From a virus: a stretch of DNA of 64,000 nt. The stretch covers positions 19,954 through 83,953 of IMG/VR virus record IMGVR_UViG_3300050343_000265; one strand, written 5' to 3'. The notes below the pieces were generated by a model. That model did no database searches. It was not told the origin of the DNA and saw only the letters and a list, made by a program, of their open reading frames with translations. Below, in pieces: positions 8,618-64,000 of this stretch; position 1 is the first letter of the stretch, and each line of letters opens with the position of its first letter. The position numbers and the translations under genes were made by a program.

Positions 8618-8619
8618 TT

Positions 8620-18961: not shown

Positions 18962-18964
18962 GGA

Positions 18965-19261: not shown

Positions 19262-19284
19262 CATAGGTCGTAGTTTTCGTTAGT

Positions 19285-19292
19285 TAAAATAG
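19285..19292 (+). promoter_or_regulatory. Phage promoter motif TAAAATAG
   Basis: TTAGTTAAAATAG begins 31 nt before the ATG at 19316. Confidence 0.55.
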
Positions 19293-19315
19293 TTATATTG
19301 CCGAGGATAAAGTAA

Positions 19316-20371
19316 ATGCTTAACAATGAAAATAAAAGGCTAGGGTACACCGAAGTTTATTACAATTATAAAGCTGACAAATTTTTCACAGAAGACTTTG
19401 GCAATCAATTCAAAGGATTAGATATTACGTTATCCAATGGCGGTGGTGGAGGAAGTGGTATTCAGGCTGGAGATAATATTAGTCAACTTACAAACGATGC
19501 AAACTATGTTGTTTCAGGAGCAAATATTAGTACTTTAGTAAATAATGTAGGATTTTTGACGTCCTACAGCATTCCATCTGCAGCCAGCCTACCAACTGCA
19601 AATTTAAGCTTTGGTAATCTTGCTGCGTTATCTACAGATAACAATCCATATTTTTATGATGGTACAGCTTGGCGAAGAATCTTCTTAGCAGATGTTCCAC
19701 CTCAAGCAGGAGATCCTGATACTGATTGGGACAAAGTTATTCTTCGAGTACCATTCAATACAAATACTACTGACGTTAAAATTCCTCTCTCATCTAGTAC
19801 TAATGGTTCTCAAGCAGTTATTACTGGTAGTCCAAGAAAATTTGGAGCTGGTGCACTTAAAGTCCAAAACTCAAGCTATATTGTCTACAGTGGTAATAGT
19901 CTTGGCGCATTTTTAGATAACGATTTCACAATAGAATTTTGGCTCTATATAGATTCATTTAATGCCCAAGATCAAGATACAGGTATATTACGCAAAGGCA
20001 CTACTTATTTCTATTTTGATTTCGTTGGAAATAATCAGATGATCTTTAAAATACACCTATCGAATGTAGGTGTAACGACACCCGATCTCGTCTATAACAT
20101 CGTAGGTAACATGCCAACTGGCGGTTGGCATCATATTGCTTACTGTCGAAATGCGACGTCTGGTTTGTGTCAATTGTTTGTTGATGGTACGTCAAAAGGA
20201 ACTGTTAATCTCAACAACATGGTTGATTCAACTAGTTATGATTTATTTATTGGTGACCTAATGAATTCTCAAGCGGATATGGTTATGGATGATTTAAGAA
20301 TATCTAACTTTGAACGATATACGTCTAATTTCACAGCACCAACTGCAGAGCTGCCTACAAGTGGCAGTTAA
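19316..20371 (+). CDS. LamG/concanavalin-like lectin-fold fibre protein
   Basis: The 351-residue protein has a fibre-like N-terminus with a Gly run, an NLSFGNLAALSTDNNPYFY-type module, and a C-terminal LamG domain: DFTIEFWLYID, GWHHIAYCRN, LCQLFVDGTSKGTV, MVMDDLRISNFERYT. LamG domains bind glycans or proteins; in phages they sit in fibres or head decorations. A role in host-surface binding is likely. Confidence 0.75.
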   Translation: MLNNENKRLGYTEVYYNYKADKFFTEDFGNQFKGLDITLSNGGGGGSGIQAGDNISQLTNDANYVVSGANISTLVNNVGFLTSYSIPSAASLPTANLSFGNLAALSTDNNPYFYDGTAWRRIFLADVPPQAGDPDTDWDKVILRVPFNTNTTDVKIPLSSSTNGSQAVITGSPRKFGAGALKVQNSSYIVYSGNSLGAFLDNDFTIEFWLYIDSFNAQDQDTGILRKGTTYFYFDFVGNNQMIFKIHLSNVGVTTPDLVYNIVGNMPTGGWHHIAYCRNATSGLCQLFVDGTSKGTVNLNNMVDSTSYDLFIGDLMNSQADMVMDDLRISNFERYTSNFTAPTAELPTSGS

Positions 20372-20588: not shown

Positions 20589-20630
20589 GCTAGATATGTA
20601 TTGGTGTTGCTTATAACCCAGAAAGATCAC

Positions 20631-21446
20631 ATGAATTACAAACAACTGATGGAATCAGTCCGCGAAACGCAGGACATTCGAGACAGCACATACAAATGTT
20701 GGTGGCAGGCTATTCGGCCTATCGCTGATGTTCCGGTGTCAGCGACGGACAAAATGTTTGTCACTCGATACTGGAAGTCGCAGCTACAGCCAATTGGCAA
20801 CTGCTCTCCCGAGACACTACGACGTCGGTTGAGCCTGCTGTCAGGCATCTGGGCTATGGCAAATGAGGAGGAGATTCTTAAGGAGCAAGCCAACTACTGG
20901 TATCACTCCAGTAAGAAGATCAAGGTCAATCGTGATCTAAATGCAGAGCGCATGGGAATGGAGTATCCCGTACGACCTTTTGAGTTCTACAAGCCGTATC
21001 ACCAAGATCCGATCTTCCTTGCAATCTGGTATCACGGGTTTCGGATTGGAGAGATCGCAGGGCTACTTAACCGGGAAATCGTTTTTAAAAATGCTATTCC
21101 GTTCTTTCAGATCAAAGATAATGACAACAGGCTCATAAAGCGCCTAGCGACAAGGCAAGTGCCTATTCATCCAGAGTTCTATCCATGGGTAGGAATGCTG
21201 ACGACTGACTTCACTCGCTACCCAGGCAAGAACTGGTCAGAGAAATTTCATGAAGACATGAAGTTGCCACCTAAAGAAGCGGCACACAGCCTTCGTCATA
21301 ACTGGAGCACCCGAGCAAGAGATGCTGGATTACAAGATTCGATGATTTCTAAAATCATGGGACATAAGGTTTCCGGCATGACCGCTCGCTATGGCTCATG
21401 GACCCTTGAAAACAAATTCGAGGCAATTAAAAAGGTCCGTCGTTAG
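20631..21446 (+). CDS. int: Tyrosine-family site-specific integrase
   Basis: ATG at 20631 is chosen over an upstream in-frame ATG because it avoids the terminator region. The 271-residue protein shows the family residues in order: Arg in YHGFRIGEIAGLL, the H-x-x-R box in HSLRHNWSTRARDAG, His in IMGHKVSGMTARYG, with the nucleophile Tyr in the last motif. The N-terminal half matches a SAM-like core-binding domain. It would join attP with the host attB, probably a tRNA gene. A strong terminator and an inverted repeat follow. Confidence 0.9.
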   Translation: MNYKQLMESVRETQDIRDSTYKCWWQAIRPIADVPVSATDKMFVTRYWKSQLQPIGNCSPETLRRRLSLLSGIWAMANEEEILKEQANYWYHSSKKIKVNRDLNAERMGMEYPVRPFEFYKPYHQDPIFLAIWYHGFRIGEIAGLLNREIVFKNAIPFFQIKDNDNRLIKRLATRQVPIHPEFYPWVGMLTTDFTRYPGKNWSEKFHEDMKLPPKEAAHSLRHNWSTRARDAGLQDSMISKIMGHKVSGMTARYGSWTLENKFEAIKKVRR

Positions 21447-29183: not shown

Positions 29184-30488
29184 CTAGTGAGTAGCAGCCC
29201 AGTTTTCACCATGATCAGCTGATGCAGCCATAGGTACTCGCAGGTTGTAGTACTTACCAGCCTCAGGTGCTGCTGCTTCTAACAACCGTTTCATTCGATC
29301 AACCTCAGCAGGTACTACAGACATCTGAACTTCATCGTGTACGTAAGCGCAGCGAGTGTAGTCACGGTCATAGGTAAGTCCCGCATCGTCTAACATCTGC
29401 TGTCCAATTACCACCCATCGCTTGGAGATGATTGCTCCGGCAGACTGAAGTAAGAAGTTGGGACTACTGTGCTCAGCACGACAGAATATAGGACGCCCAT
29501 CAAGGCCCCTAAGACGACCAGTTGAGCGAACTTTAAGTTTAACTGCATCTACTAATGGCTCCAATCCAGGGATAGCGTCAAGGAATTTGCGGCGGAGTTC
29601 ACCGCCAAGTGTTTTCTTCTGTGCATCTGATAGCTCAGGCTGCAGACTATGGCCAAGCTTTACATCACCTGCTCCATAAATGAATGCGTAGGTCAGCGTC
29701 TTGACTTGTGTACGTGTACATCCCACACGATCAGCATTTTGCTGGTGAATGTCACCGTTGACGACAACTTCAGCGAAGGAGCCCTGGTCAAAGGCGGCCA
29801 AGTAGTGCCCTAATAGGCGTAATTCCAGGCCTTCAAGGTCAGCTCCGACCATTACATGACCAGGGTGAGGTACAAATAGTTCACGTGCCCATGGTGCAGA
29901 TACAACCTGGCCCAAGTTGGGACCACGATGAATATTTCTAGATGTTTGAGTAGCAAGAATGCAGCTGTGGTGGATACAACCATCGTCTTCCATAGAGTTG
30001 AACCATGAATTGGTTCCCTCCGACAGCTGACCTAACCACTTCTGCAAGGTCAACAAACGAATAAACATCTCACATTCGTCATGCAGTTTTTGGTTACCAG
30101 CAGACAATGCAATGTCTCTTACTTCAGAGAGAGTTGCCTCATCAACTTTTGGCTTACCAGTCTCAGTAACTTTAGTGAAGCGTGCACCACGGAATGTTTG
30201 CAAAGCCCAAACAATATTTAGGCGTGACGTAGGGTTAAAGTCAGTCAAGCGCGTCATAGAAGCACCTGCTACATAGCCTTTCTTTTTATCAGCACGCTTT
30301 GGAGTAAATACTTTACCAGGTACGTACAGATAAATTGATTTGATTTTATCTGTTAAATCATCAAACTCTTGCTGCAGTTTCGTACGTACACGTACAGCAG
30401 CCTCAGTGTCAAATCTAAATCCACTTGCTTCCTGCTGAGCCATAAGCTCGGCCATCCGCATTTCAAGAGCAACGTAATCAGGCATCAT
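29184..30488 (-). CDS. polA: DNA polymerase, family A (T7-type), polymerase domain only
   Basis: The 434-residue protein carries motif A (GADLEGLELRLLGHYL), motif B (TRTQVKTLTYAFIYGAG) with conserved Lys, Tyr and Gly, and motif C (CAYVHDEVQ) with HDE. The N-terminal 90 residues are the thumb-like start. The 3'-5' exonuclease lies in a separate gene upstream (30704-31234) with a 79-residue gene between. A complete T7-type polymerase is about 700 residues, so here it is split. It replicates phage DNA. Confidence 0.92.
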   Translation of the reverse strand: MMPDYVALEMRMAELMAQQEASGFRFDTEAAVRVRTKLQQEFDDLTDKIKSIYLYVPGKVFTPKRADKKKGYVAGASMTRLTDFNPTSRLNIVWALQTFRGARFTKVTETGKPKVDEATLSEVRDIALSAGNQKLHDECEMFIRLLTLQKWLGQLSEGTNSWFNSMEDDGCIHHSCILATQTSRNIHRGPNLGQVVSAPWARELFVPHPGHVMVGADLEGLELRLLGHYLAAFDQGSFAEVVVNGDIHQQNADRVGCTRTQVKTLTYAFIYGAGDVKLGHSLQPELSDAQKKTLGGELRRKFLDAIPGLEPLVDAVKLKVRSTGRLRGLDGRPIFCRAEHSSPNFLLQSAGAIISKRWVVIGQQMLDDAGLTYDRDYTRCAYVHDEVQMSVVPAEVDRMKRLLEAAAPEAGKYYNLRVPMAASADHGENWAATH

Positions 30489-30717
30489 TATTTTTTAGCT
30501 GGTTGAATCCAAAGTTGAGATCTTTCTCTTTAGCCGCCCTGTCTGCTCGATTCTTATGACCAAGCTTTGCTACAGACTCCATAACCTTTAAGCAGTCCTC
30601 TGTAGTAGCTCCTTCTGGCATACGCGAGTGAACGATATTAAATAGCGGAAAGAAAATCTCCGCTGCCTCTGTCATTTCTTCAGAGTTGAGTGGATCTGAT
30701 TTCTTAGGAATAGTCAT
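30478..30717 (-). CDS. Small protein between exonuclease and polymerase
   Basis: The 79-residue, mostly helical protein (MTEAAEIFFPLFNIVHSRMP) overlaps the exonuclease gene by 14 nt and the polymerase start by 11 nt, so all three are coupled. It resembles short phage proteins seen near replication genes but I know no function. A subunit bridging the split polymerase is a hypothesis. Confidence 0.65.
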   Translation of the reverse strand: MTIPKKSDPLNSEEMTEAAEIFFPLFNIVHSRMPEGATTEDCLKVMESVAKLGHKNRADRAAKEKDLNFGFNQLKNNDA

Positions 30718-31234
30718 TCATTCTCCTTTGCAATAGTTCGTATAGCTTTACTGTTACTTTTGTATCTTGGATGCAATAGTCAAGCATCTCAGGAGTGTAA
30801 GTAGACCAGTCATTACTGGTGTTCTTAGCAAAGTCTCCTTTGAAGCACTTTAATCTATAGCCCCATGCCTCTAGGCTATGTGAGCCGTAGAGCCTTTGTG
30901 GCATTCCAATAGGTCTTCTTTCATAATCTCGCTCACTAATGTGAGGATAATACAAGCGAGACAGAGTAAGTGTGTCAAGGTAAGAACCTCTTGGTGCAAA
31001 CTCTGGAAACTGTTCTTTAAGAAGTGGTACATCGTATCCCAGAATATTGTGGCCAATAAGAACATCAGCACGCTCAAGGGCTTTTACACCTTGAATGACT
31101 GCACGTTCTGGTTTGCAGTCAAAAACTTCTGCTTCTTCTACATTAGCGATATCACGAATCACAATACAGTGAATTGTAGAACCGACACGCAGTAAGCCAG
31201 TACTTTCAATATCAAATAATAGTTCAGTTGTCAT
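30704..31234 (-). CDS. 3'-5' exonuclease (DnaQ/PolA exo domain)
   Basis: The 176-residue protein has ExoI FDIESTG (D8, E10), ExoII GHNILGYDVPLL and ExoIII YCIQDTKVTVKLY (Y-x3-D), the T7 polymerase exonuclease set. It would proofread for the polymerase subunit encoded downstream. Its start overlaps the deaminase-like gene's end. Confidence 0.88.
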   Translation of the reverse strand: MTTELLFDIESTGLLRVGSTIHCIVIRDIANVEEAEVFDCKPERAVIQGVKALERADVLIGHNILGYDVPLLKEQFPEFAPRGSYLDTLTLSRLYYPHISERDYERRPIGMPQRLYGSHSLEAWGYRLKCFKGDFAKNTSNDWSTYTPEMLDYCIQDTKVTVKLYELLQRRMNDYS

Positions 31235-32133: not shown

Positions 32134-32543
32134 CACCTTACAAATCTGAATAAACCATTTTCACAAGTAAGAGTCTCATGCTCTTGCTTGTGCTCTAGTA
32201 GTTTGTTGAAGATATGATCAGAAGCAATAGAAGTGTGCTTGAACTCAACTGTAATGCCTTGATCAAACCCTGGCAACTCTGGGTCATACCATTTAACAGG
32301 ACGTAAATATTCCCATGGGTCCAAGCCCTGAGAGACCCATGCATTCAACTCTTCTAATCGTTGTGCAGTCTTAATGATATGAGCTTCGTGAGCAATTTCA
32401 ATAGGCAAGGACTTGAATTCATTATTGCTTAGCAATGCATGCTTCCACATCAATGAACCATCCTTGTGGATCAAACGACATGGATGAACACGACTGCCAG
32501 ATGGCATTGTATAGAAAGCTTCAGGAGATATATGCCTACTCAT
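32130..32543 (-). CDS. Hypothetical protein
   Basis: The 137-residue protein has several His/Trp pairs (MWKHALLSNNEF and DPWEYLRPVKWYDPELP). Its start overlaps the stop of the methylase-like gene by one base, so it is likely co-translated. No family is recognised. Confidence 0.55.
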   Translation of the reverse strand: MSRHISPEAFYTMPSGSRVHPCRLIHKDGSLMWKHALLSNNEFKSLPIEIAHEAHIIKTAQRLEELNAWVSQGLDPWEYLRPVKWYDPELPGFDQGITVEFKHTSIASDHIFNKLLEHKQEHETLTCENGLFRFVRC

Positions 32544-33214
32544 TACACGTCTCCCCTGTGCTCTTCGTAATGTTCTAGGTCTTTGAACCAGTTATCACCA
32601 GCATACTCATTGTATATAATCCTACCGATGTCACGGAAGGTGTTATGGAATAAAGTGACCTTATCAATATCACTAATGGTTGCATCCAAAGGTGGGCCAT
32701 AGATTAATACATTCCAGGTTGAAGGGCAAACTGATTCAAAGCCCTTAGAAGTAGCTCGAAGTTGTTTAATGCGACGAAAAGGAATACAAACAGGATAATC
32801 CCATATAACCGGAGTCGCTCTGACGATTTCTGATGCACTAGTAAAAAATACAAAACTGTTTATATGGTTATTGCGATACTCATTAATAGTTTTGTTTAAC
32901 CACACACGAGTGTTTCGCACTGCACCCTTAGGTGCTACCCAGACATTTCCATGCCAGTGTTCCTGGAGTGGGTTTGTCTCCAACGATGGAACAGACGTTG
33001 CATCTACCAATACCTGCTGAACAGGATCAGATGTTGGGTCATAGTCGATAGAGCCCATGACTTGACGAGCTCTTTCGATTAATTGCGGCGTTGGATAAAG
33101 AGGTAGTTTTAAACCACTCTCTTTAAGCTTAGCTTGTAAATTCTGCTGCGAGCGCTCGGAAGCCTTCTTGGCTCCCACCTGCTTCGACTGCAAATGTTCT
33201 TGTTCCAGCATCAC
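32543..33214 (-). CDS. Dam-like DNA N6-adenine methylase fold, catalytic motif lost
   Basis: The 223-residue protein follows the phage Dam family: YPTPQLIERARQVMGSIDYD, then DPTSDPVQQ (usual DPASS), WHGNVWVAPKG and CIPFRRIKQLR, ending WNVLIYGPP. The family's catalytic N/D-P-P-Y after VW is here V-A-P-K (94-96 region). Methyl transfer is therefore unlikely; SAM-independent DNA binding or protection is possible. The start overlaps the preceding gene by 86 nt. Confidence 0.7.
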   Translation of the reverse strand: MMLEQEHLQSKQVGAKKASERSQQNLQAKLKESGLKLPLYPTPQLIERARQVMGSIDYDPTSDPVQQVLVDATSVPSLETNPLQEHWHGNVWVAPKGAVRNTRVWLNKTINEYRNNHINSFVFFTSASEIVRATPVIWDYPVCIPFRRIKQLRATSKGFESVCPSTWNVLIYGPPLDATISDIDKVTLFHNTFRDIGRIIYNEYAGDNWFKDLEHYEEHRGDV

Positions 33215-46171: not shown

Positions 46172-46395
46172 TCCTCTTTTTCTTCCTCTTCTTTCTTCTG
46201 TAGTTGTAACTGTGTTCTGGAATATTCAGATACACAGTCGTCAACAATAATCTCGAGCTCTTGTGAGTCCAGCTCTTCAAGTGCCATTGCACAGACAGAG
46301 CGGCGGATGGTCATTGTCATAGATGGATAGTTGTCGATTAGATATGCGTCAATATCAAAAATGAAATCGCGCTCATAATCAGTTTTTACAGGCAT
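46168..46395 (-). CDS. Small helical acidic protein
   Basis: The 75-residue protein begins MPVKTDYERDFIFDIDAYLI and ends in a Lys/Glu-rich tail. It resembles 44449-44664 in its EEFIFDL / RDFIFDI core, so they may be paralogues. Overlaps the next gene by one base. Confidence 0.5.
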   Translation of the reverse strand: MPVKTDYERDFIFDIDAYLIDNYPSMTMTIRRSVCAMALEELDSQELEIIVDDCVSEYSRTQLQLQKKEEEEKEE

Positions 46396-47048
46396 CAGAA
46401 GTCATCCTCTTTATTTACTTCAGTTGTTGGCAAAGCACGAAGTTCATCAAGAACAGCAACTTCAGTAGGAACGCCAGAGATCTCTGCAGAAAGAATTTGT
46501 ACTGCATCTGTAACGCTGGCAATAATTCCTTCTTTATCTCTGTCAGAACGAAGATCGCGGAGCTGCTCATACATATGAGTGTCAGAAACACGCTCGCCAT
46601 CTAGGTAGATGTTGGCGAATGAAGGACGCATGCCTTGATCACCACGCTTGGACCAGAAGGTAAACGGTGTGTTGAAGTCATACATCGTTGACCCCATGAT
46701 GCCCATCAAAGCTGTGACGACAGCTTGTGACCACATGGTTTCTACACCAGAAGTGAAGCAAAGCTTGATACCACCAGGACCACGCAGCTTGAGATTTAGT
46801 TTTGATGCTTTGAATGTACCAATGTCATGAACAATTTCAATGCCATAGCAGACAACATTTTTGAATGATTGTAGTGGCTTGCCGTTTGCTTGATTAAGAA
46901 GAGCAATGGGCTTGGAGTCTTTGTAGAAGAAAAATACAGCGTCAGATTCTTTCATTACGCCAACTCCAATAAGTAGGTCGTAATCAACTGGCGCAGATAG
47001 ACCACCAGTAAACTCAGAAATAATTGAAGCAGGATTAGCGATTGTCAT
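46395..47048 (-). CDS. Hypothetical 217-residue protein
   Basis: Alpha/beta protein without signal or membrane segment (DYDLLIGVGVMKESDAVFFF and WSKRGDQGMRPSFANIYLDG). It is the first gene of the dense operon that runs leftward to 41096. The GDQGMRPSFANIYLDG pattern recalls ssDNA-binding or recombination proteins, without certainty. Confidence 0.55.
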   Translation of the reverse strand: MTIANPASIISEFTGGLSAPVDYDLLIGVGVMKESDAVFFFYKDSKPIALLNQANGKPLQSFKNVVCYGIEIVHDIGTFKASKLNLKLRGPGGIKLCFTSGVETMWSQAVVTALMGIMGSTMYDFNTPFTFWSKRGDQGMRPSFANIYLDGERVSDTHMYEQLRDLRSDRDKEGIIASVTDAVQILSAEISGVPTEVAVLDELRALPTTEVNKEDDF

Positions 47049-47090
47049 AGTAAAAAGTAAGTGAATGCCATATAGGCAATAGGAAATAAA

Positions 47091-47106
47091 GGACCCATTA
47101 GGGTCC
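47091..47106 (-). terminator. UAAY-loop hairpin terminator
   Basis: GGACCC/GGGTCC with ATTA loop (UAAU on minus), followed on minus by TTTATTTC. It follows the 47112 gene. Confidence 0.75.
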
Positions 47107-48615: not shown

Positions 48616-48828
48616 TCAATCATTTGACAGTACTAGAAAGAACTTTGTTTGATCTGTTGGTGAGTTTTCATAACACGAAATGTCACCGTATTCTTTATGT
48701 TCTTTGTATCCAACCATCTTTCCTTTTGTATTCATGAGGGCTGGCATGAATGCAATTAAAAGGAATACAGATGGAGCACCAATAAGTAGTGCGCCGCCGA
48801 TTACGTAGTAGGTGAGAAGTTCAATCAT
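48616..48828 (-). CDS. Small single-pass membrane protein in photosynthesis cassette
   Basis: The 70-residue protein has one clear transmembrane helix (GGALLIGAPSVFLLIAFMPA) at its N-terminal half and a polar tail. It lies between the hli and psbA areas and overlaps the endonuclease gene by 8 nt. A vague likeness to small photosystem subunits exists but is not enough to name it. Confidence 0.6.
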   Translation of the reverse strand: MIELLTYYVIGGALLIGAPSVFLLIAFMPALMNTKGKMVGYKEHKEYGDISCYENSPTDQTKFFLVLSND

Positions 48829-49252
48829 TATTTATACTTTGGTTATGTTTGCTGTGCTTAAGCACATACTCAGTAAGACGTTGTAAGTGCTTTGGACTAT
48901 CTTCGACAAGTCCTAATACGATGTTGCAATCCTTGCAGAGTAGTTCTCTTACAGTTCCAGTTACATGGTCGTGATCCACACACCATTGGTTGTGCTTTCC
49001 TCTAGGTTCTGAAGTACCGCAGCAGGCGCACTTGGAGCCTTGAGCAAGCACCATCCTATTGAAAGTAGCAAGAGTGATGCCGTAATTACGCTGATAGTGT
49101 AAATCTCTTGCTCGTTCTGGGTCTCGGGTAGCCTTAACCCTTGTTTTAGTACACTCTTTACATTCATATTTATAACCGTTAGGTCGTGAGTTGTCTACAT
49201 AAAACTCTGATATTTCTTTTATTGTTTTACACTTGCAACATTTTCGTTCCAT
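48821..49252 (-). CDS. Endonuclease VII-like HNH nuclease
   Basis: MERKCCKCKTIKEISEFYVD at 49252 is the natural start. The 143-residue protein has two Cys pairs (CCKC and CKECT), then CACCGTSEPRGKHNQWCVDH followed by DHVTGTVRELLCKDCN and IVLGLVEDSPKHLQ, the endonuclease VII/HNH pattern. Such nucleases resolve junctions or act as homing enzymes. Its position directly beside psbA recalls homing endonucleases known to target psbA in cyanophages. Confidence 0.88.
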   Translation of the reverse strand: MERKCCKCKTIKEISEFYVDNSRPNGYKYECKECTKTRVKATRDPERARDLHYQRNYGITLATFNRMVLAQGSKCACCGTSEPRGKHNQWCVDHDHVTGTVRELLCKDCNIVLGLVEDSPKHLQRLTEYVLKHSKHNQSINND

Positions 49253-49257
49253 AAAAA

Positions 49258-49277
49258 AGGCCCACACTTGTGAGCCT
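49258..49277 (-). terminator. Terminator after psbA
   Basis: AGGC-CAC/GTG-GCCT around ACTT, with A6 to its left giving a U run on the minus strand. Confidence 0.8.
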
Positions 49278-49302: not shown

Positions 49303-50390
<1,088 letters not shown>

Positions 50391-51120: not shown

Positions 51121-52113
51121 TTATATATCTAGCACGACAGGTTCCACTAAGGTCACGTGCGTATAGCAAAGGCTTTGCGATTTGCTGATCTGAGCACCAA
51201 TACCGAATGTGCCACGTGCAAACTGAGCACGAGTTTTGGCAGCAGTCTGATTACGAGTGCTTGTTTCTATTTGGGTAATAGCATTAAAGCCATTCCAAAG
51301 AGAGAATGAGGCATACTCTGAGCCATAGCCAGCACGGAATGCTTGCTCTAGCTTCTGACGTTTACGTAGGACATCACCTTCGTCTACGTTATATACCTCA
51401 TCAACGAACTCGTTGAACTGAGACATATTCATAGCTGTACGTGAGAACTCACGCATCAGGTCACATTCATGAGCAAAGTCTTGACGCGATACATCAATGC
51501 TGTTGATAAGAGCATCGAAGTTTGCGTTGGCAGTGCCCTTGTGAGTGATGCTTGAAGAAGCACCAGTGTCACGCAAGGCAGCAGTCAGTGTGTTCTGACA
51601 GACAACACGGATGTTGGTGAACTTTGCACCACAACCGGTCTTGCCGTCATGACCTAAGTAGCCGACGATGCGTCGTTTGACTGTGTCGCCAGGGACGATG
51701 TCCGTCTCCGCACCACGGAGTGTGGCGGTAAAGCAGACTTTGGCCCCGTCAGATAGAACGATGACGCAGTCCATGTCTGCCTCTTCGCGGATAAACTCCG
51801 CCATGCGAAGCAGCGATTCGTTTTGAACGATTTCGTACTGCTTGGTAACGACACCGAGCAAAGCTTGGGTGTCAGTACGGACAACTCCGAAGACACCTGC
51901 TGGTTCGTATGAAATACGTCCTGGCAAGTATCCATCGGTAGTTCCGTTGTCGTATTGACGGGGAACTTGAAGCTCTCGCTTCTCGACAGTAAATAGTGCG
52001 TCTGCTGTTTCAAACGCCTCTCGCGCTGGAAGCGTGCCAGGGGTGACAACCCCCTGCCCGTGCCATGCACGTTCGCCATTGCCGAGCCAGCCAGATGTGA
52101 AATTTGCGGACAT
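51121..52113 (-). CDS. DUF932 phage/plasmid-like protein
   Basis: MSANFTSGWLGNGERAWHG at 52113 is the typical start. The 330-residue protein shows GKTGCGAKFTNIRVVCQNTL, SSITHKGTANANFD and a C-terminal NGFNAITQIETSTRNQT. DUF932 proteins occur on phages and plasmids, with unclear function. A hairpin separates it from the next gene. Confidence 0.85.
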   Translation of the reverse strand: MSANFTSGWLGNGERAWHGQGVVTPGTLPAREAFETADALFTVEKRELQVPRQYDNGTTDGYLPGRISYEPAGVFGVVRTDTQALLGVVTKQYEIVQNESLLRMAEFIREEADMDCVIVLSDGAKVCFTATLRGAETDIVPGDTVKRRIVGYLGHDGKTGCGAKFTNIRVVCQNTLTAALRDTGASSSITHKGTANANFDALINSIDVSRQDFAHECDLMREFSRTAMNMSQFNEFVDEVYNVDEGDVLRKRQKLEQAFRAGYGSEYASFSLWNGFNAITQIETSTRNQTAAKTRAQFARGTFGIGAQISKSQSLCYTHVTLVEPVVLDI

Positions 52114-52148
52114 TTTGATGTAGCCATGTATTGGACACAAGTTGTAAA

Positions 52149-52167
52149 AGGCCCCGTTAGGGGTCCT
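52149..52167 (-). terminator. UAAY-loop hairpin terminator
   Basis: AGG-CCCC/GGGG-CCT stem with a GTTA loop and a short minus-strand U run. Confidence 0.7.
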
Positions 52168-55840: not shown

Positions 55841-55871
55841 GTGTTCCGTATAGGGGACACAAAGAACTAAA

Positions 55872-55887
55872 CCGCCCATTAGGGCGG
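55872..55887 (-). terminator. UAAY-loop hairpin after tRNA-Asp
   Basis: CCGCCC/GGGCGG with ATTA loop, 13 bases downstream of the tRNA on the minus strand. Confidence 0.75.
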
Positions 55888-55900
55888 AAGGTTGTTTAAA

Positions 55901-55972
55901 CGACCCATGCGAGATTTGAACTCGCGATACCACCGTGACAGGGTGGCGTGATAACCGCTTCACTAATGGGTC
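55901..55972 (-). tRNA. tRNA-Asp (GTC)
   Basis: Full cloverleaf on minus: acceptor GACCCAT/ATGGGTC, D stem GTGA/TCAC, anticodon stem CCACC/GGTGG with loop CTGTCAC (anticodon GTC), T stem GCGAG/CTCGC with TTCAAAT loop, discriminator G. CCA is not encoded. It could supply codon demand of phage genes or form an attachment site for mobile elements. Confidence 0.93.
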
Positions 55973-59102: not shown

Positions 59103-59528
59103 TTAAGCAACAGGTTCGAGAGCAGGAGCTTTGTCGATAACGACGTCACCTGCGTCATCTTTCTTGTAAGCACCGTAGCCACCACTCAACACAACAGCGT
59201 TGGTGAGTTTGAGCTCAGGGCGACGACGATACTCTGTTTTACCTGTCTTTTTGTCGAAGTAGGTTTCAGAGAAACCAGACAGATGACCGGTGACAGTAAT
59301 CGTACGTCCTGTCCAATCGCGATTGGATTTGATGAAGGTGTCAAGCAAACCGTTGTTGCTGTTGATCTTGACGGCAATAGCTTGTCCATCACTGACAAGA
59401 TCAGAAAGAACGGTCATGGAGAGAAACTCTCCATACTGACCGACAACGAGCTCTGCGAAGGACACTCGACCAGTGATGGTGAGAGCGTTGAAGTCCGCAA
59501 AGGTCTTCTTGTCGTTGGAAGTTGTCAT
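59103..59528 (-). CDS. Single-stranded DNA-binding-like protein (OB fold)
   Basis: The 141-residue protein has LTITGRVSFAELVVGQYGEF, IAVKINSNNGLLDTFIKSN, GRTITVTGHLSGFSETYFDK and KPELKLTNAVV-like ending, an SSB/OB pattern. The C-terminus lacks the usual DDIPF acidic tail. A 55-residue protein at 63412 carries that tail. TGTTCTTTA is 16 nt before its start. Confidence 0.7.
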   Translation of the reverse strand: MTTSNDKKTFADFNALTITGRVSFAELVVGQYGEFLSMTVLSDLVSDGQAIAVKINSNNGLLDTFIKSNRDWTGRTITVTGHLSGFSETYFDKKTGKTEYRRRPELKLTNAVVLSGGYGAYKKDDAGDVVIDKAPALEPVA

Positions 59529-59543
59529 GAGAAAAAACTCATA

Positions 59544-59552
59544 TAAAGAACA
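59544..59552 (-). promoter_or_regulatory. Leader element TGTTCTTTA
   Basis: The minus-strand 9-mer is 16 nt before the SSB-like ATG; exact copies occur at 59992, 61323 and 63592. Confidence 0.6.
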
Positions 59553-59563
59553 CGAGAAAAAAG

Positions 59564-59580
59564 AGGACCCATTAGGGTCC
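59564..59580 (-). terminator. UAAY-loop hairpin
   Basis: GGACCC/GGGTCC with ATTA loop and U run on minus. Confidence 0.8.
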
Positions 59581-59588
59581 GTAGGTTG

Positions 59589-59981
59589 TTACTCACAACA
59601 AGGTGCGGGTATGACAGTGAAATCGTCATCGCACACACTGATTGTCGTCAGGATGTTCATGACTGCCTGTAATTTACCGGCATCTTTTGCCCATCCGACT
59701 GCTACAACTGTGTCATTGCTTTCAGCAAGACGTTCTGCTGCTTTTGTGTGCCATTCCATAAGGCTATGGATGATCTCACAGGCAGCAAGCTTGTGCACAA
59801 TCGGATGATTGATCTCGTCAGTCATATCAGAGAGCTTGTCACGGACAACTTCTGAGACTTCGTCTGCAGTACGTCCGTCATAGGGAGCTGCTTCTTTATC
59901 TACAGGCTCCACTTCTTGTTGAGCATTGACCATCAGATCCGCAAGATCTTCGAAGGAAATGCTGTCAGGAGTTGCGCTCAT
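59589..59981 (-). CDS. Hypothetical helical protein
   Basis: The 130-residue protein is acidic at its N-terminus (EEVEP-type, DLADLMVNAQQEVEPVDKEA) and contains two Cys near its end (VCDDDFTVIPAPCCE). Single gene with hairpins on both sides; TGTTCTTTA lies 11 nt upstream. Unknown. Confidence 0.6.
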   Translation of the reverse strand: MSATPDSISFEDLADLMVNAQQEVEPVDKEAAPYDGRTADEVSEVVRDKLSDMTDEINHPIVHKLAACEIIHSLMEWHTKAAERLAESNDTVVAVGWAKDAGKLQAVMNILTTISVCDDDFTVIPAPCCE

Positions 59982-59991
59982 ATTTTATGCG

Positions 59992-60000
59992 TAAAGAACA
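59992..60000 (-). promoter_or_regulatory. Leader element TGTTCTTTA
   Basis: Exact 9-mer on minus 11 nt before the ATG at 59981. Confidence 0.6.
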
Positions 60001-60012
60001 TTAGAAACTTAA

Positions 60013-60028
60013 GGACCCATTAGGGTCC
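60013..60028 (-). terminator. UAAY-loop hairpin
   Basis: GGACCC/GGGTCC with ATTA loop. Confidence 0.75.
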
Positions 60029-60034
60029 AAAGTT

Positions 60035-60124
60035 CTACCTGTGAGCTACTTGCTTAGCGATACGGATGTATTGTTTGCGTTTGTTAGCAAGATAATTAGC
60101 CACAATGATGTTCATGGTCTCCAT
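60035..60124 (-). CDS. Micro protein (29 aa)
   Basis: ATG at 60124 gives METMNIIVANYLANKRKQYI and ends at 60035 between two hairpins. It fits the one-gene-per-hairpin layout. Basic and helical. Unknown. Confidence 0.45.
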   Translation of the reverse strand: METMNIIVANYLANKRKQYIRIAKQVAHR

Positions 60125-60144
60125 GTGTAGTACATGAGTAAAAA

Positions 60145-60164
60145 GAGACCCCATTAGGGGCCTC
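60145..60164 (-). terminator. UAAY-loop hairpin
   Basis: GAG-CCCC/GGGG-CTC with ATTA loop and U-rich minus side. Confidence 0.75.
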
Positions 60165-60170
60165 GTGTTC

Positions 60171-60317
60171 TTAGTGATGAGGTCGGCGGCATAGCCACTC
60201 ATCTGATTCCATCATCGCTTCACGGATGATGTATGCACGACGTGCCGCTTCTTCGGAAAGCTCTTGATATTCAAGAGTACCGGGGCAGTCATGTGGATCC
60301 AGAGGTAATTCAGTCAT
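60171..60317 (-). CDS. Small acidic protein (48 aa)
   Basis: ATG at 60317 gives MTELPLDPHDCPGTLEYQEL and ends at 60171, between hairpins. A Cys, several Arg and a His end (CRRPHH). Unknown. Confidence 0.55.
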   Translation of the reverse strand: MTELPLDPHDCPGTLEYQELSEEAARRAYIIREAMMESDEWLCRRPHH

Positions 60318-60347
60318 ACCTATATTGTTATGGACAATGGAGTCAAA

Positions 60348-60365
60348 ACCCCCTATTAGGGGGGT
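60348..60365 (-). terminator. Hairpin terminator
   Basis: CCCCC/GGGGG with TATTA loop, after the 60378 gene. Confidence 0.75.
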
Positions 60366-60377
60366 CTTATGTGTTAC

Positions 60378-60590
60378 TCAGACGAGCGCAGCACAGAAGT
60401 GTGCATGCTCAGCGTCAGAAATGAAATCACCGATTGCTTCGTTGACAAGAGGTACAGAACCATCATTTAGATGGGTGTACTCCTCTTCTTTCGTGAGGTA
60501 GCTGAAGGCGTCTTCGTTCTGAGCAACTACAAGACTGATGCCAGGTACCAGTGTGTCACTGATGATCTGGAAGTCGTAAGTAGTCGCCAT
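60378..60590 (-). CDS. Small hypothetical protein
   Basis: MATTYDFQIISDTLVPGISL at 60590 gives 70 residues. A longer frame that joins it to the upstream gene runs through the hairpin at 60624-60641 and is rejected as a frame-shift product. TGTTCTT is 13 nt upstream. Confidence 0.6.
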   Translation of the reverse strand: MATTYDFQIISDTLVPGISLVVAQNEDAFSYLTKEEEYTHLNDGSVPLVNEAIGDFISDAEHAHFCAALV

Positions 60591-60623
60591 AAAGACAGAA
60601 TGATGAAGAACATCAATTCTTAG

Positions 60624-60641
60624 AGGACCCATTAGGGTCCT
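60624..60641 (-). terminator. UAAY-loop hairpin
   Basis: AGGACCC/GGGTCCT with ATTA loop. Confidence 0.75.
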
Positions 60642-60851
60642 AGGCTGTCCATTCTTCGGAAGCTTCGGCAACAAATCGTGCTCTATTTGGAGCTCGTTGA
60701 TTGTTTCCTTAAGCTTGTCGGCAGCACGTTCATATGAGAGTAATCTATTTTGTAGGACAGCGATTTCATCCGCTGCTTGTTTCTGTCTGAGCTCTGCATA
60801 TTTGGCATCTGAGATGACATAGACATCTCCGCCAAAGGGGATTTGAGCCAT
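60640..60851 (-). CDS. Coiled-coil protein with probable one-base deletion
   Basis: MAQIPFGGDVYVISDAKYAE at 60851 leads into a coiled coil (LQNRLLSYERAADKLKETIN). As read, the frame continues through the hairpin into the next gene. Adding one A at about 60687 gives an end ARFVAEASEEWTA with a stop TAG exactly at the hairpin (60640-60642), the layout of its neighbours. So the gene probably ends there. Confidence 0.6.
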
Positions 60852-60921
60852 ATCGTTTATTAAATGGAAGGGTGAGAGGTTATAGAAGGACATCCTGCTT
60901 CTTTATATATACCGGACTTCT

Positions 60922-61185
60922 CTAAGATAGACTGTCCAGGTCTCTACGTTGGTGTGTAGAACCGTCCTGGTTCTTGGTAATTTCCCGAACCATATCGTCG
61001 TAGAAGTCGTCGCCAAACTGTCGTCGTACCTTCTTCTCTAGGTCTACTCCACCAAGTACAGATACATCGTTATAGATGATCTGATAAAGGTAGGATAGTG
61101 CCTTCTGGTGAGACATACTTTCGACTACTGCGGAAGCGTATTCTTCCTTAGCTCTCATGAGCTCTCGTCCTGTTAATGCAGTCAT
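60922..61185 (-). CDS. Hypothetical helical protein
   Basis: Start at ATG 61185, overlapping the next gene's stop (ATGA). The 87-residue protein (LTGRELMRAKEEYASAVVES) is helical, with a Glu/Asp-rich C-terminus. Unknown. Confidence 0.55.
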   Translation of the reverse strand: MTALTGRELMRAKEEYASAVVESMSHQKALSYLYQIIYNDVSVLGGVDLEKKVRRQFGDDFYDDMVREITKNQDGSTHQRRDLDSLS

Positions 61186-61310
61186 CACTGATATCGTCCG
61201 TTAGATGTACGGTTGCGCTTGAAGCTATAAGTTGCAACTGTAGCTGTAGCAAACAGTCCCAACATACCAATGATAGCCAGGATGATTGTAGATGAGTCGT
61301 ATGTAATCAT
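61185..61310 (-). CDS. Small membrane protein (41 aa)
   Basis: ATG at 61310 gives MITYDSSTIILAIIGMLGLF and a basic tail (KRNRTSNGRYQ), one transmembrane helix. TGTTCTTTA is 13 nt upstream. Unknown. Confidence 0.6.
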   Translation of the reverse strand: MITYDSSTIILAIIGMLGLFATATVATYSFKRNRTSNGRYQ

Positions 61311-61322
61311 TAGATGATGATA

Positions 61323-61331
61323 TAAAGAACA
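61323..61331 (-). promoter_or_regulatory. Leader element TGTTCTTTA
   Basis: Exact 9-mer on minus 13 nt before the ATG at 61310. Confidence 0.6.
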
Positions 61332-61343
61332 TGTATAAATAGA

Positions 61344-61359
61344 CCACCCATTAGGGTGG
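61344..61359 (-). terminator. UAAY-loop hairpin
   Basis: CCACCC/GGGTGG with ATTA loop. Confidence 0.75.
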
Positions 61360-61365
61360 ATATTC

Positions 61366-61491
61366 TTATGGTGTAACCACTGCTATATCTTCCTTAGGGA
61401 AGATGAATGGCAGTAGAACCATAGGGAATGCTAGCACTTCCATGTGGAGACCCACGGTAATTGCTGCATAGATTGGTAGTAGAACTTTCAT
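61366..61491 (-). CDS. Small membrane protein (41 aa)
   Basis: ATG at 61491 gives MKVLLPIYAAITVGLHMEVL and ends at 61366. Two hydrophobic stretches, Pro-rich end. Single-gene unit. Unknown. Confidence 0.55.
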   Translation of the reverse strand: MKVLLPIYAAITVGLHMEVLAFPMVLLPFIFPKEDIAVVTP

Positions 61492-61521
61492 AGTCTGTGT
61501 ATAGATAACACAGAAGAAAAG

Positions 61522-61540
61522 AGAGCTTGTTAATGCTCTA
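61522..61540 (-). terminator. Hairpin overlapping stop
   Basis: AGAGC/GCTCT stem with TTGTTAAT loop, overlapping the stop codon of the next gene. Confidence 0.55.
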
Positions 61541-61700
61541 GTTCATGGCAGGAGGAGAGAATCTCCACTGCTTCTTTATTAGTGATTGTTCCTTGTTGTG
61601 TGGCATATGCCAACTCCACTGCCACCTCAGTGCACATAAGTGAACTATTAGGTGGTACGGCAGTGAACAATAGGGTAGTTATAAGTATCGTCTTAATCAT
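61530..61700 (-). CDS. Small exported protein (56 aa)
   Basis: ATG at 61700 gives MIKTILITTLLFTAVPPNSS, a signal peptide-like start, then MCTEVAVELAYATQQGTITN and two Cys (C and C, near SSCHEL). Possibly periplasmic. Unknown. Confidence 0.6.
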   Translation of the reverse strand: MIKTILITTLLFTAVPPNSSLMCTEVAVELAYATQQGTITNKEAVEILSSCHELEH

Positions 61701-61712
61701 TTCTTAATAAGC

Positions 61713-62491
61713 CTAAACGTCCTCGTCGATAATGTTGCCAAGGGAGTTGCCAAGTACGGCAGCAGTAATAGGTGCGGCAAGGTAGGAAAGATATCCACCT
61801 GCCAACCGTCCTTGCTGTCCTAACCGTGCAGGACGTCCCGCATCTTCCATAAGAGCAAGTGCATTCTTACTGGCAAGAGCTTCATCAAGAAGAACAGGGG
61901 AGGCTAATGCAATAGTTCCGAGCATAGCTTCGTCAAGATCGTCATCGCCAGGGGTCATAGCAGCAGCTGCAATAGGAGTAATTCCAGTAGCAGCACCCAA
62001 GGCGACAGCGAGCTTAGGATTGCTAGAAACTAAGTCACGAAGGCGTCGAATCTTATCCCCAACAGGGGAGTTAAGAGAGGTCTGATGTCCTAATTCGTGA
62101 GCAAGATAAATCTCGTCAGCATTAGGGTTGTATTGAATAGTGCTAGGCAGACGTTGTCCTTTAGCAATATCCATTTGTCCATCAGGACCAGGTGCATACC
62201 TTGAACCATGGGAGGCATACCGCATTGCATTCAATGCATCCAATAATTCAGGATCATTAGATTCAATCATCTCCCTCAGTTTTGCACCAGTGGGAGCTTC
62301 ATTAGCGTTTAAACCAAGACTTGAATTGGATTAGAACCAGCAGCTTTCTCTGCCCGTTCACCATATGCTTTAAGCAGACTGTCACGTGCACCAGGTCCAG
62401 CAGCACGTTTGTGAGGCTTGGCCCGCATCAAGTCTCGTTGAGCAACAGCACCGGGAATTTGTGCAGCTAGTAATGTAAGTAAAGGATGCAC
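61713..62491 (-). CDS. Membrane zincin-like protein (HELGH), frame broken once
   Basis: Two frames (62309-62491 and 61713-62270) join if one A is added near 62325: ...EKAAGSNP then NSSLGLNANEAPTG. The joined protein (about 259 residues) has the zinc motif AHELGH, a hydrophobic region LAVALGAATGITPIAAAAM and a second near the C-terminus. A HExxH peptidase with membrane parts. Otherwise the two halves are separate reading units. Confidence 0.55.
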
Positions 62492-62536
62492 GGTATGATA
62501 TTAATGCAGTAATTCAATTGTAGAAGAAAACAAAAA

Positions 62537-62552
62537 CCCCCCGTAAGGGGGG
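62537..62552 (-). terminator. Hairpin terminator
   Basis: CCCCCC/GGGGGG around GTAA, with A-rich left flank; follows the 62559 gene. Confidence 0.8.
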
Positions 62553-62558
62553 GGAGAC

Positions 62559-62723
62559 TCAGAGCTCAGGGTCACAGAGATCGGCAGGCCACTGAACGTA
62601 GACCTGGGCTGGAGTACCGCAAGAGCGGTAGAACTCAGCCATGTTCTGTGCTTCTTCATAAGAAGAGAACTCTTGAGTCCGAATGTCATCCGTATAAGGA
62701 GGACGGTATTGAACAAAGTTCAT
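62559..62723 (-). CDS. Small protein, SYEEA family paralogue 1
   Basis: MNFVQYRPPYTDDIRTQEFS at 62723 gives 54 residues with SYEEAQNMAEFYRSCG. Shares SY(E/Q)EA with 62782-62955. Leader element variant upstream. Unknown. Confidence 0.55.
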   Translation of the reverse strand: MNFVQYRPPYTDDIRTQEFSSYEEAQNMAEFYRSCGTPAQVYVQWPADLCDPEL

Positions 62724-62736
62724 AATAATGTAAATG

Positions 62737-62745
62737 AGAAAGAAC
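62737..62745 (-). promoter_or_regulatory. Leader element variant TGTTCTTTC
   Basis: Minus-strand variant 14 nt before ATG 62723; preceded by TTTATTTCACTG, the same 12 bases as at 62955's leader. Confidence 0.5.
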
Positions 62746-62758
62746 ACAGTGAAATAAA

Positions 62759-62774
62759 CCCCGCGTTAGCGGGG
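62759..62774 (-). terminator. UAAC-loop hairpin
   Basis: CCCCGC/GCGGGG with GTTA loop. Confidence 0.8.
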
Positions 62775-62781
62775 TAATATG

Positions 62782-62955
62782 TCAGAAGTGAAGGTTGTTA
62801 ATTTGCTCTGTGGAGGGGACGTAGTCAAGACGAACGTCGTCCCAGTCTTCGAAAGACTTAGCAAATGACTTTGCTTCTTGATACGAGTCGAAGCATTCAC
62901 GAACAGCATCAAAGCTGTCGTTACCGCAGATCTCGTAATGAGTGACTGTGTACAT
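62782..62955 (-). CDS. Small protein, SYEEA family paralogue 2
   Basis: ATG at 62955 gives MYTVTHYEICGNDSFDAVRE and ends at 62782; SYQEAKSFAKSFEDW is the shared segment. Leader and hairpin are near-identical to those of paralogue 1, so the whole module was duplicated. Confidence 0.6.
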   Translation of the reverse strand: MYTVTHYEICGNDSFDAVRECFDSYQEAKSFAKSFEDWDDVRLDYVPSTEQINNLHF

Positions 62956-62986
62956 CGTGAAGATGTGAAGAACACAGTGAAATAAA

Positions 62987-63002
62987 CCCCCCGTAAGGGG
63001 GG
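62987..63002 (-). terminator. Hairpin terminator
   Basis: CCCCCC/GGGGGG with GTAA loop, after the 63010 gene. Confidence 0.8.
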
Positions 63003-63009
63003 AGTGAGC

Positions 63010-63333
63010 TCAAGCCGCAGCGGCGGGAGCGGGAGCAGAAGCTTCAGCAGCAGGAGCAACCTGTGCTTTGTCATCTGACTTTGCAGTGAAAGGGTTGATA
63101 GACAAGCCCTTTGATTGACGATCACCTGCGTAGATCAGTCCAGCCGAGATGCCGGAGGCAGCAAGAACTTGAGCAGGAAGCACAGCGGTAACGAGTGCAA
63201 CACCTGCGACACCGGTACCAGCGGCTACAAGCACGCCAGCGGTTGTCAGAGTGTTCTTGTCGAGCATGCCTTTAGATCCAGCAAGAAGTGCAGGACCGTC
63301 AGCTTGATCGACGAGGAAGTCAAAGTTTGACAT
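63010..63333 (-). CDS. Small membrane or virion protein
   Basis: The 107-residue protein (MSNFDFLVDQADGPALLAGS) has two hydrophobic stretches (GVLVAAGTGVAGVALVTAVL and LAASGISAGLIYAG) and an Ala/Pro-rich tail. Possibly a membrane protein of the phage late stage. Unknown. Confidence 0.6.
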   Translation of the reverse strand: MSNFDFLVDQADGPALLAGSKGMLDKNTLTTAGVLVAAGTGVAGVALVTAVLPAQVLAASGISAGLIYAGDRQSKGLSINPFTAKSDDKAQVAPAAEASAPAPAAAA

Positions 63334-63367
63334 GTTAGGAATGAAATGTAGAACATGAATAAATAAA

Positions 63368-63383
63368 GAGCGCGTTAGCGCTC
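63368..63383 (-). terminator. UAAC-loop hairpin
   Basis: GAGCGC/GCGCTC with GTTA loop. Confidence 0.8.
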
Positions 63384-63411
63384 AGCAGTTGTATGTACTG
63401 GAAAGCTGTGT

Positions 63412-63579
63412 CTAGAAAGGGATGTCGTCGAACTCAGCTTTCTCCATAGGCTGATCAAGGAAGAGTGGATACTCTTCATCGGGAGCATTACAGTCAAAGT
63501 TGTAGACAACGCCAACGTAGTTGCCGTCCTCATTTATGTACGTGTAACCGGAGTTACCGAACTGTTGAAGGAAGATCAT
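63412..63579 (-). CDS. Small protein ending with SSB-like acidic tail
   Basis: ATG at 63579 gives MIFLQQFGNSGYTYINEDGN and ends at 63412 with AEFDDIPF. The last residues match the universal SSB C-terminal tip (DDIPF) that recruits host RecQ, PriA, Exo I and others. The main OB protein at 59103 lacks this tip. It could mimic or supply the tail in trans. TGTTCTTTA is 13 nt upstream. Confidence 0.6.
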   Translation of the reverse strand: MIFLQQFGNSGYTYINEDGNYVGVVYNFDCNAPDEEYPLFLDQPMEKAEFDDIPF

Positions 63580-63591
63580 GATTTAATTATG

Positions 63592-63600
63592 TAAAGAACA
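63592..63600 (-). promoter_or_regulatory. Leader element TGTTCTTTA
   Basis: Exact 9-mer on minus 13 nt before the ATG at 63579. Confidence 0.6.
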
Positions 63601-63612
63601 TACATAATTAGA

Positions 63613-63628
63613 GAGCGCCTTAGCGCTC
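63613..63628 (-). terminator. UAAG-loop hairpin with no gene to its right
   Basis: GAGCGC/GCGCTC with CTTA loop. On the minus strand it should follow a transcript coming from the right, but no convincing gene lies there. Confidence 0.6.
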
Positions 63629-64000
63629 AATAACCCTCACGAGTTCCCTTAGTGGTAGGTGTGGTAGGTTCACACAACACAGAGGCCGAGAGACATCTAA
63701 TGTTACGCACAAGTTCTAACGTAAGTTATGAACGACAGTTATCCAACTGAAGTAACTGGTGCTTACAAATGTGAACGCAAGACGAGAACGAACACAACAC
63801 AATAGTTAACATTAAGTGTTGAACTAAAGATATTGTGTGAGTTCTACTTGCGTGAACAGAAGAATAAACGTGAGCTCAATTGCGTAAGCAATTACGAGCG
63901 AACTACAGTAGTAATGAGCGAGCGAAGCGAGCGGGTGAAACCCTTGTGCTCTACTAGTTTATTTTTTTTGTTCCACCGGCCGATCGGGAACAGAGGGTAT
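63629..64000. other. Repeat-rich right end, no convincing gene
   Basis: Contains inverted repeats ATTGC/GCAAT at about 63878-63891, GTTC/GAAC at about 63842-63858, repeated GTTCTA/GAACG units and GAGCGAGCGAAGCGAGCG near 63914. A 25-codon frame at 63729 is likely chance. Possible origin, packaging or regulatory DNA. Confidence 0.4.

Follow-up and report, generated by a model that had tools for sequence, protein, structure and literature searches.

A hairpin and box at fixed spacing before genes of an S-EIV1-like cyanophage: a candidate transcription-unit start and gene-swap joint

A repeated module in the right arm of the genome

We analyzed a 64,000-nucleotide stretch, referred to here as the window, of virus record IMGVR_UViG_3300050343_000265. 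The window corresponds to bases 19954-83953 of this 83,953-bp record and represents the right 64 kb of an S-EIV1-like cyanophage. The nearest record to this 84-kb genome by capsid protein is Synechococcus phage S-EIV1 (68% identity), and more than 500 capsid relatives are present in IMG/VR. The subject of this study is a repeated module that precedes many small minus-strand genes in an array near the right end of the window and that is composed of a GC hairpin, a T-rich tract, and the box TGTTCTTTA, followed by a start codon. An initial inspection of the letters alone (the original prediction) had reported exact copies of the box at 59544, 59992, 61323, and 63592 and variants at approximate positions that correspond to 60604, 62738, 62966, and 63347, and all of these are present on the minus strand. 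Further copies at 60126, 60328, 61502, 55851, and 52129, as well as TGCC versions near 47.1 kb, had been missed. Many genes indeed have their own copy, as proposed, but this is not the case for the genes starting at 59028, 60851, 62270, and 62491, which lack a module. Family searches with the array proteins retrieved only families of unknown function. The copies are listed below.

63592..63628, minus: module, GAGCGC/GCGCTC + 12 nt + TGTTCTTTA, before the first array gene (63412-63579), no gene upstream; 39.7 bits
63347..63383, minus: module, GAGCGC/GCGCTC + 12 nt + TGTTCTACA, before gene 63010-63333
62966..63002, minus: module, CCCCCC/GGGGGG + 12 nt + TGTTCTTCA, before gene 62782-62955
62738..62774, minus: module, CCCCGC/GCGGGG + 12 nt + TGTTCTTTC, before gene 62559-62723; 51.5 bits
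61502..61538, minus: variant module, AGAGC/GCTCT hairpin, box TGTTATCTA, before gene 61366-61491; 21.5 bits
61323..61359, minus: module, CCACCC/GGGTGG + 12 nt + TGTTCTTTA, before gene 61185-61310
60604..60640, minus: module, AGGACCC/GGGTCCT, box TGTTCTTCA, before the ATG at 60590
60328..60363, minus: variant module, CCCCC/GGGGG + 12 nt + TGTCCATAA, before gene 60171-60317
60126..60162, minus: variant module, GGCCCC/GGGGTC + 12 nt + TGTACTACA, before a 26-codon open reading frame (ORF); relative G001 has a gene cassette here
59992..60028, minus: module, GGACCC/GGGTCC + 12 nt + TGTTCTTTA, before gene 59589-59981
59544..59580, minus: module, GGACCC/GGGTCC + 12 nt + TGTTCTTTA, before gene 59103-59528
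55851..55887, minus: variant module, CCGCCC/GGGCGG + 12 nt + TGTCCCCTA, outside the range of the original prediction; 33.3 bits
55561..55597, minus: variant module, CTGGCC/GGCTAG + 12 nt + TGATCTATT; the box is TGTTCTATA in relative G001
52129..52165, minus: variant module, box TGTCCAATA, before gene 51121-52113; 21.7 bits, weak
47077..47106, minus: mini-hairpin (TGCC) version, GGACCC/GGGTCC + 12 nt + TGCCTATATGGCA, before gene 46395-47048; partial match

The box TGTTCTTTA occurs 8 times in the window versus 0.92 times expected, and no shuffle reached 8. Four copies on the plus strand lie inside or opposite long ORFs. In a search with a covariance model of the module, 16 matches (E up to 0.051) were obtained on the minus strand of the window and none on the plus strand. 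The bare 9-mer with one mismatch allowed was weakly enriched (34 versus 24.5) and was discarded as the signal; this weak enrichment indicates that the hairpin is needed and that the signal consists of hairpin plus box, not of the box alone. Terminator-like sites numbered 24 in the window, compared to 5.5 expected.

Anatomy, spacing, and covariation of the module

The comparison set comprised the window's own record, the relative phage records G001 to G013, and S-EIV1, and gene calls were our own simple predictions. The typical module starts mostly 5 to 8 nt past the upstream stop codon with a 6-bp GC stem (loop of 3 to 5 nt), which is followed by the tract TTTaNTT, a terminator-like layout, and then by TGTTCTTTA, 10 to 15 nt, and the ATG. 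The box lies at exactly +12 from the end of the stem and not 15 to 25 nt away, as initially estimated; its proposed location near the ATG was correct, with a measured distance from box end to ATG of 10 to 15 nt instead of 11 to 16 nt. The ATG is rarely less than 18 nt from the T of the box. The box can also be a TGTNC variant. Its most constant part is TGT (TGTCC, TGTAC, and TGTAA are also found), and the CTTTA part is less conserved. In the tract after the stem, T accounts for 68 to 94% at the first three positions; the tract is imperfect afterwards, with only 28% T at position 4.

Across the hairpins of all genomes, the offset of TGTTCT from the stem end was 12, or 10 to 11 where the stem pairs one or two bases further. 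In the discovery genomes, TGTTC was found at gap 12 in 36 cases, and the runners-up were gap 6 (9 cases) and gap 11 (6 cases). Hairpin-linked TGTTC was at gap 12 in 17 of 24 cases in four held-out contigs from later pattern scans, three of which had been fetched with one stem flavour plus TGTTCTTT at a free gap of 4 to 30, meaning that one site in each of these three was preselected for some hairpin and not for the gap. Control words gave no peak at gap 12 except the overlapping GTTCT, and the spacing holds across divergent relatives.

All six pairs were formed in the fixed register at 43 of 77 sites that had been chosen only by TGTTC[TA] before an intergenic ORF start, and four more of these sites show the 3-nt loop of G002. 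In 38 distinct modules, 99.1% of the stem cells were paired, compared to 57.7% after shuffling and 47 to 55% when slid by one; since these modules had been preselected for at least 5 pairs, the covariation and the variety of pair types outweigh this percentage. Two-sided changes were observed at all six stem pairs, which shows that the pairing itself is under selection. Each genome favours its own stem flavour, and stem sequences differ also inside one genome. A box without a hairpin hardly ever precedes a gene. Taken together, the fixed register, the covariation, and the near absence of boxes without hairpins establish that pairing, spacing, and box are one unit.

In a second class of modules, a small hairpin (TGCC-NNNN-GGCA) begins exactly at +12, and the start codon is displaced downstream by approximately the length of this hairpin; all 19 of 19 sites fold to -3 kcal/mol or better. 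The corresponding second hairpin around the box of the TGTTC class is weak and shows no covariation. GAACAC located before the hairpin can pair with GTGTTC of the box to form a larger outer stem in G005 (32262-32960), G008 (18633-19607), and G010 (7995-8934). As a general feature, this outer stem was rejected, as it is limited to the G005/G008/G010 clade and overall not above flank swapping. An upstream ORF starting at NTGTTC was likewise discarded, given that the distances to the ATG show no frame bias.

The module is conserved lineage-wide among the relatives. It is absent from S-EIV1 according to the covariance model, and no Rfam 15 family matched at gathering score in the 45- to 64-kb part of the window, where only a tRNA was found. 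Synechococcus genomes were used as host stand-ins, which is an assumption; the phage carries a psbA-like gene whose best matches are scattered over many cyanobacteria. Of 61 genomes from the family of a Synechococcus, 2 gave single weak matches near chance, and a host origin of the module was rejected on these grounds. Collection scans with three stem flavours retrieved gap-12 modules only in contigs with several modules, whereas the other matches were isolated and had other gaps. Outside this lineage, the module was thus not found in the 61 Synechococcus-family genomes, Rfam 15, or the collection scans.

Relation to transcription-unit starts

Many other genes in these phages, here mostly structural ones, are preceded by the -10-like element TANAATA, about 25 to 30 nt before the start codon. 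In the window, TAGAATA, TACAATA, or TAAAATA is found at this distance from the ATG of late genes, e.g., at 12785, 13192, 13418, and 27223 (plus strand). TANAATA likely represents a separate promoter class, and a CTTATATT class possibly precedes replication genes. TANAATA was present in 0 of 90 module leaders and in 147 of 563 other leaders of at least 35 nt (p 2e-11), an exclusion that is partly forced because the searched stretch overlaps the constrained spacer and box of the module. Shine-Dalgarno-like words were detected in 4 of 90 module genes and 12 of 185 TANAATA genes, compared to 130 of 415 operon-internal genes. The reported lack of AGGAGG was verified, but it applies equally to other unit-first genes in these phages. 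Furthermore, orthologues differ in the element that precedes them: an HAD-like gene is preceded by TACAATA in G000 and G001 but by the module in G002, and the small MITYDSS, MTELPL, and MGPLRI genes are operon-internal without a module in some phages. The exclusion of TANAATA, the few Shine-Dalgarno words, and the swapping of orthologues between module, TACAATA, and operon-internal position point to the module as a mark of transcription-unit starts, where it seems to take the place of the usual promoter. The suggestion that the element is a promoter core is supported to this extent; the box is not a host-type -10. An RNA-binding protein site, also suggested initially, is conceivable.

A different arrangement was noted at 6963(-) of G002, 64704(+) of G003, 70649(-) of G005, and 16487(+) of G007 (strand coordinates), where a hairpin and a T-run are followed by TGCCTATAATA. 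The -10-like hexamer is 12 to 14 nt from the stem, which is nearly the module distance, in what appears as a terminator-promoter junction with a canonical -10.

Gene exchange at modules

Homology breakpoints were inside modules in 6 of 10 cases for G000/G001, 7 of 8 for G008/G010, and 8 of 12 for G008/G005, whereas 13 to 14% would be expected from coverage; the reciprocal views gave 6 of 10, 4 of 8, and 7 of 13. A gene of G001 that is absent from the window sits exactly between the hairpin and the box of the 60126 module. Boxes move together with the gene that follows them, and hairpins match the genome's own flavour. From these patterns, the module seems to act as a seam for whole-gene swaps.

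Interpretation

The reading that we favour, with evenly balanced confidence, is that the module is both a cassette joint and a transcription-unit start, in which a terminator hairpin, a non-canonical 5'-end/promoter box, and a recombination seam would be combined. Single-gene or short-operon cassettes would be connected by modules, each joint opening a transcription unit. The GC stem-loop and the T-rich tract would end or strongly attenuate the upstream transcript, and TG(TTCTTTA) at exactly +12 would be the core of the promoter element, possibly recognized by a box-reading factor. The next mRNA would start at or near the box and have a short leader of about 10 to 23 nt without a Shine-Dalgarno sequence. 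Homologous recombination at the joints could add, remove, or swap genes and leave expression intact, because cassettes share the same box at the start and the same kind of hairpin at the end. The proposal that expression may be set one gene at a time fits this cassette shuffling. Overall, the original interpretation is borne out in part; the 12-nt geometry, the covariation, and the recombination-joint role had escaped it.

Two related records share a conserved terminal block (ACCCTCTGTtCCCG...GGTGGAACAAAAAAAATA; window 63628-64000 and G001 72000-72332), equivalent regions of which are also present in G002, G005, and G008, and about 400 nt of noncoding DNA separate this block from the array. 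The block looks like a physical genome end. Expression of the array is probably early, since it begins about 400 nt from this apparent end.

Several observations weigh against a combined terminator and promoter, in addition to the partly forced exclusion of TANAATA. Genes that open an array are also preceded by the hairpin, even though nothing but noncoding DNA or a divergent gene lies upstream and a pure terminator would be needless there; its retention at these sites argues that its role goes beyond terminating the preceding gene. Termination may be weak because the T-tract is imperfect, and an independent terminator and promoter would not be expected to keep a strict 12-nt spacing. The modules contain neither TTGACA nor TANNNT at a fixed position, and sigma-70 sites are below chance. 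Without a positioned TANNNT, the module is not a host-type promoter, and a host-type -10 or SigA promoter within it was rejected. With its four regions, the sigma factor of the phage is of the ordinary sigma-70 kind, and TANAATA is its more plausible target. No T7-type RNA polymerase was detected in a Pfam search whose control was silent, so that this does not prove its absence. An N4-type or T7-type promoter was also rejected, as no matching polymerase gene was seen (weak evidence, given the silent control) and the spacer is not conserved.

A more specific proposal, which we regard as tentative, is a structure-dependent gene start: the pairing of the hairpin, not its sequence, and TG at exactly +12 would set the mRNA start, and the same unit would be the recombination seam. 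This could occur by initiation through the host enzyme and a phage factor, by termination-coupled re-initiation, or by fixed-distance cleavage. A hairpin that sets the 5' end would, if true, be an unusual mechanism.

The strongest competitor, although doubtful, is RNA punctuation. In this scenario, transcription from the noncoding genome end would yield one long polycistronic RNA, and an endonuclease of the host or the phage would cleave it at or close to TG, always equally far from the hairpin, to leave hairpin-protected 3' ends and uniform 5' leaders. Processing agrees with a hairpin and box that behave as a single unit joined by a single-stranded spacer of constant length, with the hairpin retained before first genes, with the lack of a promoter motif, and with the TGCC class, in which the second hairpin is inserted exactly at +12 and displaces the start codon. 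However, the sites fit no known nuclease consensus, a nuclease for such cuts was not identified, the T-rich tract directly after the stem is more terminator-like, and the exclusion and replacement of TANAATA better match an initiation signal.

Translational control, in which the box would serve an RNA-binding protein of the phage or the host as operator or would recruit ribosomes, is unlikely. The box does lie 10 to 15 nt before the AUG of genes without a Shine-Dalgarno sequence, and in many cases a weak second hairpin, TGT-TCTTT-AYA, could form from it near the AUG: AYA is at +8..+10, the pairs (2,8), (1,9), (0,10), and (-1,11) are formable at frequencies of 0.65 to 0.80 versus 0.44 to 0.56 expected, and several modules of the window fold with the box in the loop. 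Yet this second hairpin does not covary in the TGTTC class, the box keeps its place relative to the first hairpin while its distance to the ATG varies by at least 5 nt, and operon-internal orthologues have lost it. TANAATA genes are equally without Shine-Dalgarno sequences, and no pairing of the box with the 3' end of the host 16S rRNA beyond chance was found. The ribosome-recruiting element envisaged initially is therefore disfavoured, and a Shine-Dalgarno substitute was rejected, as the box neither pairs with this end nor is fixed relative to the AUG.

That the module is mostly a recombination site, i.e., a single-stranded DNA hairpin cassette like the integron attC without a direct role in expression, is very improbable. 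In its favour are the clustering of breakpoints in modules, the genome-specific stem flavours, and the tyrosine recombinase encoded by the phage. Against it, ordinary homologous recombination between near-identical joints accounts for the breakpoints, stem sequences vary within one genome, and both the fixed relation to start codons and the mutual exclusion with the other promoter-like element reveal a selection linked to expression. Least probable of all is boxA-like antitermination, in which the hairpin and UGUUCUUUA would recruit NusB-S10 as in rrn boxB-boxA and let the polymerase pass many hairpins: the hairpin-then-boxA order of rrn operons is shared, and TGTTCTTTA contains GYTCTTTA, but the site follows each hairpin instead of preceding it, CTTTA is the less conserved part, and TGTTCTTTA occurs 1 to 3 times per host-stand-in genome and in none of the rRNA leaders and spacers read. 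A host boxA was rejected on the basis of the rrn spacers of two Synechococcus genomes, which have GAACCTTGACAACT and not TGTTCTTT.

Other features of the phage record

Outside the window, the phage has a gene (L004, 17806-18744, record coordinates) for a sigma-70 family factor that is complete, with Pfam matches to regions 1.2, 2, 3, and 4. The tyrosine recombinase (Phage_integrase family) is at 20601-21446 (plus) of the window. A polA-type DNA polymerase at 29184-31234 (minus) is apparently split into a polymerase part (29184-30488) and an exonuclease part (30704-31234). The psbA-like gene at 49303-50390 (minus) appears broken, as the homology to host psbA ends near residue 285-310 and the C-terminal part sits in a separate frame; an HNH-type ORF (48821-49267) is located just beyond it. 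The break could stem from a frameshift, from the relic of an intron, or from an error in the assembly. A tRNA-Asp (gtc) at 55901-55972 (minus) is just upstream of the 55851 module.

Comparison with known systems

The module resembles intrinsic terminators in its GC stem, which covaries, followed by a U-tract that is imperfect after three positions. The hairpin promoters of the N4 virion RNA polymerase have a conserved sequence and are closer to the start than the hairpin described here. What they have in common with the module is a short GC hairpin set at a constant distance from the start; a gene for a giant virion RNA polymerase was not seen in the phage. In the halovirus HF2, short intergenic repeats before many genes were tested with a reporter and are reported to carry promoters (PMC8707807). 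HF2 differs in being an archaeal virus with AT-rich promoter motifs, and the terms "hairpin" and "stem-loop" do not occur in that article. With boxA, the module shares the succession of hairpin and box. BoxA, together with boxB, is present in rrn operons, lambdoid nut sites, and suhB, where it is just upstream of a start region, and the consensus whose core TGTTCTTTA fits, GYTCTTTAANA, is gammaproteobacterial (PMC5725501). In contrast to boxA, the module is present in one copy per gene with rigid spacing, and the Synechococcus rRNA spacers carry GAACCTTGACAACT.

The closest parallel is to the promoter early stem-loops (PeSLs), which mediate gene shuffling in T4-like phages, as described in PMC4503421 (for Arbiol 2010; Comeau 2014). 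Both systems are repeated composites of a stem-loop terminator and a unit start, with many copies between the genes of regions where small genes of unknown function abound, and in both the copies would act as recombination joints that shuffle genes, in line with the breakpoints at modules here. The module differs in its exact 12-nt spacer and TGTTCTTTA box and in a stem that is free in sequence but paired, with a genome-specific flavour; it also departs from two defining features of PeSLs, having no recognizable host-like early promoter and belonging to an S-EIV1-like phage instead of a T4-like myovirus. By analogy, the module works like a PeSL without being one. S-EIV1-like phages are abundant in public viral contigs, and the rigid hairpin-12-TGTTC joint can serve as a gene-start marker for their annotation, which sets apart a class without a host-type promoter from the TANAATA class. 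It would also provide a second case, beyond the T4-like phages, of expression signals that double as gene-swap seams.

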